From the NCBI RefSeq assembly GCF_022394535.1, contig NZ_CP089414.1, positions 5,146,001-5,210,000 on the forward strand: DNA of 64,000 bases, written 5' to 3'. Origin of the DNA: Dyella terrae. Lineage in GTDB: Bacteria; Pseudomonadota; Gammaproteobacteria; Xanthomonadales; Rhodanobacteraceae. Below, piece by piece: positions 2,709-23,313 of the stretch (position 1 is the stretch's first letter; the number at the start of each line of letters is the position of its first letter). The position numbers were made by a program, and so were the translations under genes. Below the pieces are notes generated by a model. The model was not told the origin of the DNA and searched no databases. It saw only the letters and a program-made list of their open reading frames with translations.

Positions 2709-3215
2709 ATGACCGTGCTGATCCGCCCCGAGACACCTGCCGATGTCGACGCCATCCATGAGCTCACCGTGGCGGCGTTCCTCGATGCCGAGCATACGTC
2801 GCATACGGAGCAGTTCATCAACGATGCCTTGCGTAACGCGGGGCATCTCACCTTGTCGCTAGTGGCGGATGACGGTGGCGCCATCGTCGGGCATGTCGCC
2901 ATGTCTCCCGTATCGCTTTCGGATGGAAGCGTGGGTTGGTTCGGCTTGGGACCGGTGTCGGTGTTGCCTGCGCGTCAGGGCGAAGGCTTGGGCTCCCGAC
3001 TCATCCGGCAGACGCTGGACGCGTTGCGCGAGCAAGGTGCGGCGGGTTGCGTCGTGCTGGGCAATCCGGATTATTACGGGCGTTTTGGTTTCCGCGCCGA
3101 TCCGCGCCTGGTGCTACCTGACGTGCCGCCGGAGTACTTCCAGGCGCTGGCTTTCGTTGGCCCGATACCCGACGCCAGTGTCCGCTACCACGATGCGTTC
3201 AACGCCAATGCATAG
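2709..3215 (+). CDS. GNAT family N-acetyltransferase (YhbS-like)
   Basis: A 168-residue protein of the GNAT fold, which transfers acetyl from acetyl-CoA to an amine; the substrate is unknown. The acetyl-CoA binding signature is visible as VLPARQGEGLGSRLI (the Q/R-x-x-G-x-G/A loop), followed by ALREQGAAGCVVLGNPDYYGRFGF, which is characteristic of the YhbS-like subgroup. The start is ATG 2709, placed 9 bp after GGAG (2696-2699). An in-frame ATG at 2682 has no such site. The gene stands alone and converges on a small lipoprotein gene, with a strong hairpin between them. Confidence 0.88.
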   Translation: MTVLIRPETPADVDAIHELTVAAFLDAEHTSHTEQFINDALRNAGHLTLSLVADDGGAIVGHVAMSPVSLSDGSVGWFGLGPVSVLPARQGEGLGSRLIRQTLDALREQGAAGCVVLGNPDYYGRFGFRADPRLVLPDVPPEYFQALAFVGPIPDASVRYHDAFNANA

Positions 3216-19036: not shown

Positions 19037-19650
19037 TCAGGGCGCCTTGGTTGCCTGGAGCTGTTGCACGATGGCGAGCGACTTGCTCACATGGTCCTGC
19101 GGATGCAGGTGATCGGCTTCGGAGGAGAACACGGCGGCCACTTTGCCGTCGCGCCCGATCACGAAGGTCACGCGCGAGATGAAACCGTGCTCGATGGCCT
19201 GGCCTTGCACATCTTTCGCGTCAGGCTCGGCGGCGGACATCTTCACGTCGTACTGGGCGGCGATCTTGCCCTGCGGATCGGACGCCACCGGGAATTTGCC
19301 GGCGCAGTAACTCGGGTCGGCCGAGAACGTGTTGAGCCGGTCGATGCTGTCCGCCGAGACGCCAATGATGGTGGCGCCTGCCGCAGCGAACTTCGCCGCT
19401 TCCGTGGCAAAGGCGTGTGCTTCGATATCGCAACCGCCGGTATAGGCCGAGGGAAGAAGTACACGATGACCGGCCCCTTCTTGAGCGCGTCGGCCAGCGA
19501 GAGGGTGAAGCTCTTGCCGTCGTGACTGGCCTGGGTGGTGAAGGCCGGAGCGGTGGCGCCCTGGCTGATGGCGGCGAAGGCGGGGGGCGTCAGGAGCATG
19601 CCGCCAGCCAGAACAGCAGCGGCGAGCGAACACAGGAGATGCTTTTTCAT
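19037..19650 (-). pseudogene. Exported peroxiredoxin (AhpC/TSA, Bcp-like), frameshifted in the active site
   Basis: From ATG 19650 the frame gives a signal peptide (to AFA, residues ~1-27) and the thioredoxin-fold start FTLSLADALKKGPVIVYFFP, then goes out of frame. The -1 frame continues SAYTGGCDIEAHAFATEAAK to TFVIGRDGKVAAVFSSEADH and a normal end. Joined, they give the peroxiredoxin motif PxxxTxxC (P-S-A-Y-T-G-G-C), so the break falls between the motif's Pro and Thr. One missing base in the GGG run at 19451-19453 (plus strand) explains it. Corrected length is about 204 residues. Role: thiol-dependent peroxide reduction in the periplasm. It may be an assembly error or a real loss. Confidence 0.85.
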
Positions 19651-20023
19651 GCCGGTATCCTCGTGGTGCGTCGGGGTAGACAGTGGGGAGTGAGTGCCCG
19701 GGCCAGGCCCTGGGGTTCAAAAGCTCAATCTATCGCTTGTGGCCGATGCGGCGACAGTGGGCGGCGATGGCGCCGGGCGGCCCGGGCGTTCGAGCCCGAT
19801 CGGCGCCGTGCTCAAGGTGGACGGCGTGCGAGGCTCTTGCCGGCGCGATTCTCACCGGCCGGTGAGGCTACCATGCGCCCAGGCGTAGGCGCGCGCCACT
19901 TTGCTTGTCTCGATCCAGCAAACTTTTCGGCGGTTGCGCAGGGCCCTGCGGCGGCTCGGGGCGATCCTTTGCCATATGTCGCCTGGCGTGCTCAGCGGTC
20001 AGAAATTGCCCTAATATCGCGGG
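19651..20023. other. Divergent intergenic region upstream of the borosin-like locus
   Basis: 373 bp between the start of the peroxiredoxin gene (minus) and the methyltransferase gene (plus). It holds no supported gene. It contains the 16-bp palindrome at 19851-19866 and must contain both promoters. TTGCCCTAATATC close to 20024 is a plausible promoter element for the methyltransferase but is not a strong consensus. Confidence 0.55.
19851..19866. promoter_or_regulatory. Perfect 16-bp palindrome, candidate operator
   Basis: CTCACCGGCCGGTGAG is exactly self-complementary and lies 157 bp upstream of the methyltransferase start. Such dyads can be repressor sites. The binding protein is unknown, and a chance palindrome in GC-rich DNA cannot be excluded. 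Confidence 0.35.
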
Positions 20024-20863
20024 ATGGAAAACTCTTCGACACCGGCAGCGACAGACGTGCGCCACGGCAGCCTGGCTTGTGTCGGCCTGGGCATGACGCT
20101 CGGATCCCACCTCACGCCGCTGGCGCGCAGCCATATCACCCAGTCGGACGTGGTGTTCGCGGGTGTGTCGGACGGCATCGTGGAGGCATGGCTGCAACGC
20201 ATGCATCCAGACGTGCGCAGCCTGCAGCCCTATTACCGGGAAGGGAAGTCGCGACTCACGACGTATCGCGAATGGGTCGACCTGATGATGACCGAAGTAC
20301 GCGCGGGCAAGCGCGTCTGCGGTGTGTTCTATGGGCACCCTGGCATCTTTGCCTGGTCGCCGCACAAGGCCATCGAAGCGGCACGCGCCGAAGGGTATGC
20401 CGCGCACATGGAGCCCGGCATTTCCGCCGAAGATTGTCTCTATGCGGATCTGGGCATCGACCCGGGCCGTTTCGGTTGCCAGCATTTCGAAGCCAGCCAG
20501 TTGCTGTTGTTTGAGCGCCGCATCGATCCCACCGGTTATCTGGTGCTGTGGCAGGTGGGGCACGTGGGCGACCAGTCGCTGGCGCGTTTCAAGGCGACGG
20601 GTGCCGCGTATCGGCAGGTGTTCGTGGACCTGCTGAGCGCGGATTATCCGCTCGACCATCAGATGATCATCTACCGCGCGGCCACGCTGCCCATCCAGCA
20701 GCCGCGCATCCGCCGTGTCGCCTTGCGTGACCTGCCGGATATCGAGTTGTCCGCCGAGGAAACCGTGGTGTTGCCCCCGGCGAAGGCCATGAAGCCAAAC
20801 CTGACGATACAGGCGCGGCTGGCCGAGTTGGATGCGCTGGAAGAGGCCAGCATGACGGCCTGA
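20024..20863 (+). CDS. Borosin-type peptide backbone N-methyltransferase (tetrapyrrole methylase fold)
   Basis: A 279-residue SAM-dependent methyltransferase. Visible motifs: SAM-loop GLGMTLGSHLTP (21-32); Y-R-E-G-K-S-R-L-T-T-Y (71-81), which has the Tyr/Arg/Tyr spacing of the catalytic residues of the fungal borosin enzyme OphMA; VFYGHPGIF; and PGISAEDCLYADLGIDP followed by GCQHFEAS. This set distinguishes borosin alpha-N-methyltransferases from cobalamin/sirohaem methylases. Borosin enzymes methylate backbone amides of a ribosomal peptide, either fused to the enzyme or, in split systems, separate. No peptide tail is fused here, so a separate substrate is expected, and a candidate follows 173 bp downstream. 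ATG 20024 has no strong ribosome binding site. Family assignment is from memory of the motifs. Confidence 0.87.
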   Translation: MENSSTPAATDVRHGSLACVGLGMTLGSHLTPLARSHITQSDVVFAGVSDGIVEAWLQRMHPDVRSLQPYYREGKSRLTTYREWVDLMMTEVRAGKRVCGVFYGHPGIFAWSPHKAIEAARAEGYAAHMEPGISAEDCLYADLGIDPGRFGCQHFEASQLLLFERRIDPTGYLVLWQVGHVGDQSLARFKATGAAYRQVFVDLLSADYPLDHQMIIYRAATLPIQQPRIRRVALRDLPDIELSAEETVVLPPAKAMKPNLTIQARLAELDALEEASMTA

Positions 20864-21036
20864 CGCAGTAACATCGTCGGGTGCCACGGGGGGAGAGGAC
20901 CGTTGGCGCATGGCGTGATGAGTGAGCACCGGTGGCGCCCGTCATCGTGTTTCATCAAGATATGCCGGCCTGGCACATCGCGTGAGTGACGCAATGAGTG
21001 CAGGATCATCACCGTAAAACAATAGGGGGATTGTTT

Positions 21037-21336
21037 ATGACAGATACGATGGAGCTGCTTGAAGCCATCGGGCAAGACGCTACGTTGCGTCATGCCTCGG
21101 CCGACGCATTAGGCGACGTACTCGATGCGGCGGAAGCATCCGATGCATTGAAGGCTGCCGTGGCGTCTGGTGACAGCGCATGGCTCGCACAGGAATTTGG
21201 AACCCGTGCCACCATGAATGGCAGCCAGAGCTCGCAGACCTGTCCTCAGGAAGAGCCACTGCCCACGCCCGAGCGCGAGGACGAAGAAGAACCGTCCACG
21301 CCGCTGGAGCCCGACGTGTCCTCAAGCAGCGGCTAG
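21037..21336 (+). CDS. Putative split-borosin precursor peptide
   Basis: A 99-residue peptide. Residues ~5-52 are helical and carry IGQDATL and, after a 22-residue gap, KAAVASGDSAWLAQ. I recall the same G-Q-D-A-x-L and A-V-x-x-G-D-x-x-x-L pattern in the borosin-binding domain of the Shewanella split precursor SonA. The tail (from ~55) is Gln/Ser/Thr then acidic and Pro-rich, with one Cys, ending DVSSSSG. Core residues cannot be defined, and the tail lacks the Val/Ile-rich stretch of known cores. ATG 21037 follows AGGGGGA (21024-21030) at ideal spacing, so it is well translated. Substrate of the upstream methyltransferase by inference. Confidence 0.75.
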   Translation: MTDTMELLEAIGQDATLRHASADALGDVLDAAEASDALKAAVASGDSAWLAQEFGTRATMNGSQSSQTCPQEEPLPTPEREDEEEPSTPLEPDVSSSSG

Positions 21337-21345
21337 GGGGCAGGC

Positions 21346-23121
21346 ATGCTCCGGCAGTGGCGCAAGCGCTGGCCCTGGCTCGCTGCGGCGAGCATGGGAC
21401 TTTGCGTGCTGCTGGGTGCTGCATACGCCGTCGAGGTCTCATCCGACCCGACGGCGTTTCTCCAACAGACCGAGCGCGTGCGTACCACTGATCACTCGCG
21501 CTTTGTCCACATGCTGGCGCAGATCCACGATGAGGCCTCCAGCCTCAAGCCGGCACAGCAGTGGTACTTGCGTTACCTCGATGCGTGGCAGGCGGCGTTC
21601 GAAGGCGATACCGCCAGGGCCAATACCATGCTGCGGGACGTCATGGACCATTCCGGTGACGTGACGCTCCAGGCCAAGGCCACGGCCTTGCTCATGCACA
21701 ACTACGGATTGAGCAGCCGGTACGAAGATGCCTTTGGGCTAGCTAACCAGCTGGCCTCTGACCTGCCCAAGGTCAACGACAATCTGGCGCGCTTCACCGT
21801 GCTGTCCAATTTGTCGCAACTGATGATGTTCGCGGGCCAGGGTGAGTTGGCCATCAAGTACGCCCGCATGATGGAAGACTCGTTGCCGCCGGGCGAAAGC
21901 CTGTGCAACCCACTGTCGATGGAAGTGGCCGCGCTCAACAACACCGGAAAGCTGACATCGTCCAGCCAGAAACTGCGGGAGGCCATCGATGCCTGCGTCG
22001 CGGGCGGGCAGCCGGTGTTCGCCAATACCGTCCAGCTGGTCAAGGGTGATCTCTACCTGAGCGAGGATCAGCCGGCGAAGGCGCTGGAATTGATACAGCG
22101 CATCCTGCCCAGCATCAACGCCAATCGTTACTACTCCCACATGAGGGCGGCGCAGGTACAACTGGCGCAGGCGTACGAAAAGCTGGGCGAAGACAACGAC
22201 GCACGCAAGGCCGCGCTGACGGTGCTGTCCATGAGTGGCCAGGACGAGGTCAGCGAGTGGGTACGAAGCGCCTACGAGGTGCTCTACAAAGTGGAGAAGA
22301 AGCGCGGTAATGCGGGTGCGTCGCTAGCCTACTACGAGCGCTTCGTAGCGCAGGATAAAGGCTATCTAAACGATATCAGCGCCAGGTCGCTGGCCTATGC
22401 CACCGTGCAGCAGCATCTGCTCGCGCAGCGGCTGGAGGCCGAGGGGCTGAGCAAGCAGAACAATATCCTGCGCTTGCAACAGGCGCTGGACACCAAAGCT
22501 GTCGAGACGAGCCGGCTCTACATCGCGTTGTTACTGCTGCTGGTCATCTCCATCGCGGCATGGCTGTTGCGCATCAAGCGCTCGCAGCTGCGCTTCAAGA
22601 TGCTCTCTTTCCGCGACAGCCTGACCGGCATCTTCAACCACCAGCACTTCGTGAGCGAGGCCGAGCGCGTGTTGCGCACCACGGAGAGGAAATCGGGTGC
22701 TGCCTGCCTGATCTCCATCGACCTGGATCACTTCAAGCTGATCAACGATACCCACGGCCATGCCGTCGGCGACATCGTGCTCAAGCACACCGTGACGCTC
22801 TGCCAGCGACAGCTGCGCCCCACGGATCTGTTCGGTCGCCTGGGTGGCGAGGAGTTCGGCATTCTGCTGCCCGACTGCACGCGTGAGCAGGGCGTGGCTA
22901 TCGCGGATCGCATCCGCACGGCGATCGAGGCCACCCCGGTGGAGGGTGACGGCCGTCTCGTCACGTTCTCCGCCAGCATTGGATTGGCGTCCACCGACAG
23001 TTCGGGCTACGAGCTTCAGCTGTTGCGCAGGGAGGCGGACGCCGCGCTTTACCGTGCCAAGCGCACCGGGCGAAACCGCGTTATCGCGGACAACCAGCTC
23101 CCGGGCATGATCCGGGCCTGA
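21346..23121 (+). CDS. Diguanylate cyclase with TPR-like sensory region
   Basis: A 591-residue membrane protein. The N-terminal signal/anchor is WLAAASMGLCVLLGAAYAV, followed by ~350 residues of TPR-like helices (periplasmic), a transmembrane helix (LYIALLLLLVISIAAWLL, ~387-404), then a GGDEF domain. The active site GGEEF is at 500-504 and the inhibitory I-site RPTD at 491-494, five residues before it, so it should make c-di-GMP from two GTP under product inhibition. The start lies 9 bp after the stop of the putative borosin precursor, so the two are almost certainly co-transcribed, which is unusual for a RiPP gene. Confidence 0.93.
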   Translation: MLRQWRKRWPWLAAASMGLCVLLGAAYAVEVSSDPTAFLQQTERVRTTDHSRFVHMLAQIHDEASSLKPAQQWYLRYLDAWQAAFEGDTARANTMLRDVMDHSGDVTLQAKATALLMHNYGLSSRYEDAFGLANQLASDLPKVNDNLARFTVLSNLSQLMMFAGQGELAIKYARMMEDSLPPGESLCNPLSMEVAALNNTGKLTSSSQKLREAIDACVAGGQPVFANTVQLVKGDLYLSEDQPAKALELIQRILPSINANRYYSHMRAAQVQLAQAYEKLGEDNDARKAALTVLSMSGQDEVSEWVRSAYEVLYKVEKKRGNAGASLAYYERFVAQDKGYLNDISARSLAYATVQQHLLAQRLEAEGLSKQNNILRLQQALDTKAVETSRLYIALLLLLVISIAAWLLRIKRSQLRFKMLSFRDSLTGIFNHQHFVSEAERVLRTTERKSGAACLISIDLDHFKLINDTHGHAVGDIVLKHTVTLCQRQLRPTDLFGRLGGEEFGILLPDCTREQGVAIADRIRTAIEATPVEGDGRLVTFSASIGLASTDSSGYELQLLRREADAALYRAKRTGRNRVIADNQLPGMIRA

Positions 23122-23313
23122 TCTGTTCGACCCGGCGCGCGCCGTGGTGGCGTCGCCCCATGTCGATCCGTGAGACGCCTGTTCGTCATTCTGATGAACC
23201 ATCACGCCGGAACGATGACCGGCACGATTTAAAGGATGGCCATACGGCTGCCGTTGCGCTCGCGCGGCGGGACGCCGTAAGGCTTTCTGTCCCCACGATG
23301 TAGGAGTAGCCCG

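Follow-up and report, generated by a model that had tools for sequence, protein, structure and literature searches.

A split-borosin locus of Dyella terrae joined to a TPR-GGDEF protein: a possible peptide signal and its receptor

Gene content of the locus

The window, a stretch of 64,000 nucleotides covering positions 5146001-5210000 of the 5.36-Mb single-contig genome of Dyella terrae, contains a forward-strand methyltransferase gene (20024-20863, 279 aa) and, 173 bp downstream, a short forward-strand ORF that starts with ATG (21037-21336, 99 aa) and has the ribosome binding site GGGGG 7 nt 5′ of its start codon. Both ORFs lie where the first-pass annotation of this DNA had placed them, as enzyme and precursor of a split borosin system. 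That annotation ended the locus at 21336, which is too short, as a third gene (21346-23121), starting 9 bp behind the precursor stop codon, is part of the same unit. The features are collected in Table 1.

Table 1. Features of the cassette, in positions of the window.
Feature	Positions	Strand	Basis
Split-borosin alpha-N-methyltransferase (SonM homologue), 279 aa	20024..20863	+	PF00590, SonM match, catalytic residues
Divergent block, precursor and TPR sensor domain, between conserved enzyme and conserved output	20800..22450	+	DNA identity to G004
Precursor residues 1-54, borosin-binding domain (leader)	21037..21198	+	Helices, hhalign to SonA-like profile
Precursor residues 55-72, linker and putative core (QSSQT region)	21199..21252	+	Conserved block after leader
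Precursor residues 73-99, acidic Pro-rich tail	21253..21336	+	Sequence, alignment
TPR-GGDEF membrane diguanylate cyclase, putative receptor, 591 aa	21346..23121	+	PF00990, weak TPR matches, model
Predicted periplasmic TPR sensor domain, residues 35-319, invariant C187 and C217	21448..22302	+	Model, alignments
Signalling helix with transmembrane segment, residues 323-421	22312..22608	+	Model, hydrophobicity
GGDEF output domain with GGEEF active site and RxxD I-site	22615..23085	+	

The enzyme matches PF00590 (TP-methylase) with an E-value of 2e-19. Its closest solved structure is SonM (7ltc_A, E 8e-73), followed by the OphMA family (E about 1e-49), so the resemblance is not due to chance, and the enzyme falls in the SonM/OphMA branch of the TP-methylase fold. 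The competing identity, a cobalamin or sirohaem methylase, was rejected; the NCBIfam matches are weak, partial and far under their cut-offs, and the top solved relative is SonM. All of the motifs previously picked out in the enzyme (Y71, R77, Y81, YGHPG at 103-107 and SAEDCLYADLGIDP) were found. Residues Y71, R77, Y81, Y103 and F109 do not vary across a 13-member alignment and align with Y58, R67, Y71, Y93 and F99 of SonM, the catalytic residues being as in that enzyme; the roles of the SonM residues are described in the part of PMC8429565 that was consulted. There, SonM-SonA of Shewanella oneidensis is a type IV split borosin which, like the window system, has a separate enzyme and precursor and a catalytic Tyr/Arg/Tyr. 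SonM differs in having Y-x8-R where the window enzyme has Y-x5-R, and the side-clamp loop of the window enzyme is 3 residues shorter.

The 99-aa precursor matched no Pfam family above the cut-off and no NCBIfam family, and 37 homologues besides itself were found in the protein database (E <= 1e-3). In an alignment of 34 of these 38 sequences the first 54 residues are conserved and are followed by a short conserved stretch, reading MHxTQSSQTFP in many relatives, and in most by an acidic tail. With hhalign the family profile could be aligned to one built from 8 SonA-like precursors (94%, E 1e-7), and the latter matches SonA itself at E 4e-27. A precursor model of modest confidence (mean pLDDT 62.5) predicts leader helices at residues 4-13, 15-18, 22-31, 36-44 and 47-54, with disorder C-terminal to residue 54; a Foldseek search with this model ranked SonA first, in 4 of 7 rows, at E-values of 3.8 and above that are not significant by themselves. 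Searching the PDB directly with the precursor gave designed alpha-repeats and no SonA, a search with the narrow precursor-family profile found nothing credible and no SonA, and the link to SonA comes only from the profile-profile comparison and the model. By these two lines the window encodes a separate precursor with a five-helix borosin-binding domain, and SonA has the same order of five-helix leader and then core in the consulted text of PMC8429565. The SonA motifs that the first-pass annotation had cited are correct, as SonA in the PDB has LGQDAQL and AVMTGDMEKL. Taken together, a SonM homologue with its catalytic residues and a separate SonA-like precursor bear out the split borosin reading.

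The putative core lies in the same register as that of SonA (residues 62-71, according to the same portion of PMC8429565). In contrast to SonA, the window precursor has a polar core and a long acidic tail; tested borosins are described as mainly hydrophobic in the literature extracts consulted, and the polar core counts against the signalling function proposed below. The precursor has no signal peptide. A promoter scan that included the 173-bp gap between enzyme and precursor found no sigma-70-like promoter, and RNA folding of the gap gave nothing unusual (z 0.31). Four terminator-like sites lie in 19650-21400, with 0.8 expected, two of them overlapping within the gap at 20930-20947.

The 591-aa product of the third gene matches PF00990 at E 4e-41 and TPR families weakly. 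Its model (mean pLDDT 88.6) has a TPR superhelix at residues 35-319 and then a single long helix (about 323-422), the top hydrophobic stretch of which lies near residues 391-407. The GGDEF domain has an intact active-site motif, present in 54/54 aligned relatives, as are an N-terminal hydrophobic stretch and a hydrophobic segment ahead of GGDEF, and the two cysteines of the TPR domain are invariant both in this alignment and in another of 19. The TPR domain is predicted to be periplasmic. In comparisons with PDB profiles the TPR part matched the RRNPPA receptors RapF and RapJ at E 4e-6 to 2e-4, and it also matched designed TPRs, LGN/Pins and kinesin light chains; fold searches with the model returned mostly GGDEF matches and barely probed the TPR fold. 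RRNPPA receptors are cytosolic TPR proteins with HTH or phosphatase-type output, and the likeness to them lies in a TPR superhelix that binds short peptides. Membership of that family was rejected, the matches being generic to TPRs, the output being GGDEF or a hybrid kinase and the TPR domain being predicted periplasmic. The sensor resembles an RRNPPA receptor in its working at most.

Conservation of the neighbourhood

Loci were fetched with an enzyme profile, and the best 80 of at least 575 candidates were analysed as named loci. Among these best 80, a precursor accompanies the enzyme in 78 and a TPR-GGDEF gene is present in 72. Eight have no sensor, of which three stop at a contig end and five have enzyme and precursor but no sensor, an arrangement that counts against a signalling function. 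The same best 80 of at least 575 loci hold 103 precursors, 91 of them with a sensor within 1.5 kb downstream; those falling outside this filter include precursors of L085, L090 and L122, loci which do have a sensor gene, and of L134, which lies at a contig end. Past residue 58, the 91 sensor-adjoined precursors have a median of 11 acidic residues, and 6/91 have fewer than 6. In the five sensor-less loci, 7/8 precursors have at most 19 residues past residue 58, with 0-5 acidic ones, and the eighth is a longer protein (L140). The acidic tail was considered as the element recognised by the sensor and was rejected, given those 6/91 precursors and the SonA-type precursors that adjoin sensors and have no tails.

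The enzyme is encoded in 20/20 genomes of the genus Dyella examined and in 40/61 genomes of a sample of relatives (E <= 1e-50), the present genome being included in both. At E <= 1e-3 the latter count was 41, and one genome, whose sole match was weak (E 1.3e-4), was left out. The sensor family (E <= 1e-20) occurs in the same 40 genomes, and the same 21 have neither; the probability of identical sets by chance would be 8e-17 if the genomes were independent, which they are not. The first-pass annotation had expected a largely uncharted natural-product source here. A borosin system is indeed present, but it is no local oddity, and the natural-product framing is probably wrong, since a TPR signalling protein is what usually lies next door, and this indicates signalling and not an antibiotic-type product.

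In a sample of 398 Pseudomonadota genomes the enzyme was found in 15, in one of them inside a 1174-aa protein. A TPR-family protein adjoins the enzyme in 14/14 of the non-fused genomes (in G183 on the opposite strand), with GGDEF as the output domain in 11 and a hybrid histidine kinase in 3. The kinase partners, two of which belong to one genus, consist of TPR, HisKA, HATPase and receiver domains, two with Hpt as well, and align with almost the entire TPR profile (E 4e-24 to 1e-27). Genomes lacking the enzyme also have matches about as strong and mostly shorter, and 21 of the 35 genomes of this sample with a TPR match at E <= 1e-10 lack it; the level of match is thus not specific by itself, and the argument from the kinases rests on adjacency rather than score. 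The single strong sensor match in a genome without the enzyme (G343) had no precursor by profile search.

Across 250 genomes of the order, with a sensor cut-off of E <= 1e-30, enzyme and sensor occur together in 112, the enzyme alone in 8, the sensor alone in 18 and neither in 112. A precursor-like ORF was present at 1 of the 17 sensor matches (from a total of 26) looked at in 10 of the 18 sensor-only genomes. The link between enzyme, sensor and precursor weakens with phylogenetic distance. The sensor was also rejected as an exclusive marker of borosins, as it has relatives in other families without enzyme and precursor, which weigh against the signalling function proposed below.

When 41 loci were compared, the TPR-GGDEF cluster was present in 33 and every gene other than enzyme and sensor in 11 or fewer; the precursors, being short and varied, split over several small clusters. 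No gene for export or maturation was common to most of the 41. The named neighbours of the window cassette are a peroxiredoxin-type protein, an alpha/beta hydrolase, a glyoxalase-like protein and a DUF899 protein, with no peptidase or exporter seen among them. A shewasin-type pepsin-like peptidase has a role in Shewanella borosins; the pepsin-like family PF00026 had no match in this genome and none in control genomes either. At loci of a second paralogue, an alpha/beta hydrolase gene occurs in 5 and a pro-kumamolisin-type peptidase gene, a possible maturation protease, in 9 (L043:8676-10322 and 8 further loci).

Coupled divergence of precursor and sensor domain

The closest relative of the window by enzyme is G004. 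Its DNA identity to the window, taken in 150-bp steps, is 92-95% at 20050-20799, 57-82% at 20800-22449 and 86-96% at 22450-23199. By part, the two are 95% identical in the enzyme, 99% in the GGDEF domain and 94% in the helix and membrane part, and 74% in the TPR domain, 74% in the leader and 39% in core and tail. The corresponding values against another genome, G002, are 86% for the enzyme, 95% for GGDEF, 90% for TPR, 93% for the leader and 57% for core and tail. In the flanks, DNA identity is 85-87% to G004 and 83-86% to G002, G004 being not clearly closer there, unlike in the enzyme. The flank identities single out no one part as that exchanged.

Distances were compared by Mantel permutations, which ignore tree structure, across 98 of 118 de-duplicated cassettes; the other 20 had no same-strand enzyme gene directly ahead by the filter used and were left out. 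Across the 98, precursor distance correlates with TPR distance at r = 0.84 (0.60 given the enzyme) and with enzyme distance at r = 0.75 (0.17 given TPR). For the core, the correlation with TPR given the enzyme is 0.44 (p = 0.002, the lowest value possible at 499 permutations) and that with the enzyme given TPR is -0.06 (p = 0.85); core and TPR also remain correlated beyond the GGDEF domain (0.26, p = 0.002). The leader correlates with the enzyme given TPR at 0.24 and with TPR given the enzyme at 0.58. This last residual is not needed by the idea that the core is the ligand and counts against it, and linkage alone could give part of it. Identities were also compared in the 57 pairs whose enzymes are at least 84% identical, rows with missing values being dropped; members are shared between pairs and the values are hence descriptive. 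Median identities were 86 for the enzyme, 72 for the leader, 42 for core and tail, 70 for TPR, 80 for the helix and 79 for GGDEF, and the correlations with the core were 0.71 for TPR, 0.50 for GGDEF and 0.31 for the enzyme.

Precursor and sensor domain thus diverge together between a conserved enzyme and a conserved output. In the ComX-ComP and AgrD-AgrC pherotype systems, likewise, a divergent block made up of a modified peptide precursor and a sensor domain lies next to an output domain that is conserved. The window system differs from these in its enzyme chemistry, TPR sensor, c-di-GMP output and Gram-negative host. The pattern suggests that the precursor-TPR block may be a signal-receptor specificity block.

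Precursor-sensor pairs without a neighbouring enzyme

The 61-genome sample yielded 14 sensor sites without a nearby enzyme gene, all of which were fetched; a fifteenth, cut by a contig start, was left out. A precursor directly adjoins the sensor in 12/14, and the remaining two have only a precursor remnant (L193) or none (L204). One such pair lies in the present genome (L075:850-3035, G000 C1, about 3.818 Mb), with a TPR-GGDEF gene at 850-2706 and a precursor at 2709-3035. As the genome has a single enzyme gene, that of the window, and the second pair has none, the window enzyme may serve both precursors. An alpha/beta hydrolase gene precedes the L075 pair, as it does at L037, L039 and L050, where the enzyme gene comes next; from this order of genes, L075 has probably lost its enzyme.

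Proposed function and alternatives

We propose that the cassette encodes a split-borosin peptide signal which is read by a cognate TPR receptor controlling c-di-GMP, and put the probability of this at somewhat under 0.6. By homology, the SonM-like enzyme would dock the precursor through its five-helix leader and N-methylate amides of the peptide backbone in the core that follows. A matured, protease-resistant peptide would then reach the periplasm, by protease and export steps not visibly encoded at the locus, and there may bind the TPR domain of the neighbouring diguanylate cyclase, which would switch c-di-GMP synthesis. The chemistry is argued from the SonM homology, the catalytic residues and the SonA-like leader. 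Signalling is argued from the conserved three-gene neighbourhood with enzyme and sensor in an identical 40/61 genomes, from a related TPR domain being joined to another kind of output in 3/14 genomes, from the precursor-sensor pairs kept without a neighbouring enzyme (12/14), and from the coupled, lineage-specific divergence of precursor core and TPR. A precedent for a TPR domain controlling its own GGDEF domain is RcbB of Vibrio vulnificus, in which, in the part of PMC12282931 consulted, the TPR domain represses the GGDEF domain and an operon partner relieves the repression. RcbA-RcbB is like the window system in that a TPR domain governs a GGDEF domain and a regulator is encoded in the same operon; it differs in having a TPR protein rather than a peptide as the partner, and the word ‘methyltransferase’ does not occur in the text of PMC12282931. 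The main gap in the signalling reading is transport, a cytosolic precursor without a signal peptide standing against a periplasmic sensor. The data suggest that the sensor apparently evolved together with the peptide and that bacterial split borosins act as private signals.

Alternatively, the locus may be an ordinary split borosin that makes a natural product (a toxin, a metallophore or similar), with the TPR-GGDEF protein as a pathway regulator that responds to the state of the cell or the amount of product. At the family level the borosin chemistry has good support, peptide-TPR binding is putative, and the five loci with enzyme and precursor but no sensor, among the best 80 of at least 575, would fit such a role. 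Against it, sensor and precursor are kept together at 12/14 sites without a neighbouring enzyme, the core co-varies with TPR beyond GGDEF (0.26, p = 0.002), and the output domain differs in 3/14 genomes. We consider this explanation unlikely, with perhaps one chance in five left to it.

A control system inside the cell or in assembly appears still less probable. In such a system the precursor would act as a folded, acidic-tailed protein that binds TPR, with methylation tuning the interaction and no peptide released. It would account for the co-variation of the leader, too, with TPR beyond the enzyme (0.58) and for acidic tails going with presence of the sensor gene in the best 80 of at least 575 named loci, it has a precedent in RcbA-RcbB, and it agrees with the named neighbours of the window cassette, where no peptidase or exporter was seen. 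It is at odds with the predicted periplasmic position of the TPR domain (hydrophobic N-terminus in 54/54, two invariant cysteines) beside a precursor that has no signal peptide, and with the tail-less SonA-type precursors next to sensors. That the adjacency reflects shared history only, three genes moving as a block and the divergence being recombination tracts, is very improbable, for although neighbours could have precursor and TPR swapped together by one tract, this leaves unexplained why the output domain differs in three genomes (one or two events), why the core-enzyme residual is zero, why presence and absence match across 61 genomes and why precursor-sensor pairs occur at separate sites.

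The signalling reading may extend beyond this family. SonA-type precursors in G417, G271 and G385 also adjoin a TPR-GGDEF gene, that of G417 being a close SonA homologue (E 7e-26). Tentatively, and at odds that we place a little short of even, TPR-partnered bacterial split borosins, the SonA type included, could be at root Gram-negative peptide pheromones and not antibiotics: N-methylated peptides with cognate periplasmic TPR receptors, exchangeable outputs (c-di-GMP or phosphorelay) and strain-specific pherotypes, one methyltransferase serving several pairs in trans. The usual sensor partner, an output that varies in some genomes and the divergent block make the question of the product directly testable, through binding and switching of the neighbouring cyclase by the cognate peptide. 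Should the peptide prove to do this, backbone N-methylation, which has until now attracted interest for drug-like peptides, would be tied to cell-cell signalling and perhaps to biofilm control in soil bacteria, and a TPR neighbour would become a rule for finding precursors that sequence searches miss.

Relation to published systems

Borosins are divided into types 0-XI and classes 1-4 in the consulted part of PMC11395268, and the window system fits class 3, in which binding domain and core lie in one protein and the enzyme is separate. The legend of its Figure 1 holds both occurrences of GGDEF in the text and defines it as an abbreviation, so some borosin architecture is presumably drawn with a GGDEF domain. 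An excerpt of PMC11285071 describes split borosin clusters as already known from a wide range of bacteria. The borosin part itself is of a known kind, and its GGDEF neighbourhood may already be known too. In the open-licence literature searched, no text joined borosin with Dyella or with diguanylate, borosin and GGDEF occurred together only in the PMC11395268 legend, and the kinase variant, the enzyme-less pairs and the divergent precursor-TPR block were not found. In what was consulted, bacterial split borosins have no established biological role.

Variant loci

Several loci depart from the simple three-gene order. Cassettes are repeated in tandem at L123, L124, L128, L136 and L086, where two full sets adjoin or as many as three TPR-GGDEF genes occur, and the Rhodanobacter loci L112, L119 and L122 have at least two precursors each. 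In Luteibacter sp. dw_328 (L150), a single methyltransferase is surrounded by three short precursors that resemble one another, and the locus contains no TPR sensor. At L140:3823-4359 and L028:2449-2985, a BBD-like domain is C-terminal in a longer protein with a signal-peptide-like stretch; its gene lies directly upstream of an enzyme whose own short precursor has neither an acidic tail nor a sensor neighbour. In the 1174-aa protein of G086 (L186:2840-6364), the methyltransferase domain lies near the N-terminus and the C-terminal end is acidic, making it possibly a fused borosin. Lastly, in-frame stop codons, perhaps from decay, assembly error or recoding, lie inside some methyltransferase matches: one or two of them (TAG or TAA) in G453, G561 and G599, which belong to one family of the order, and TGA in G056, seen with a single-protein query only.
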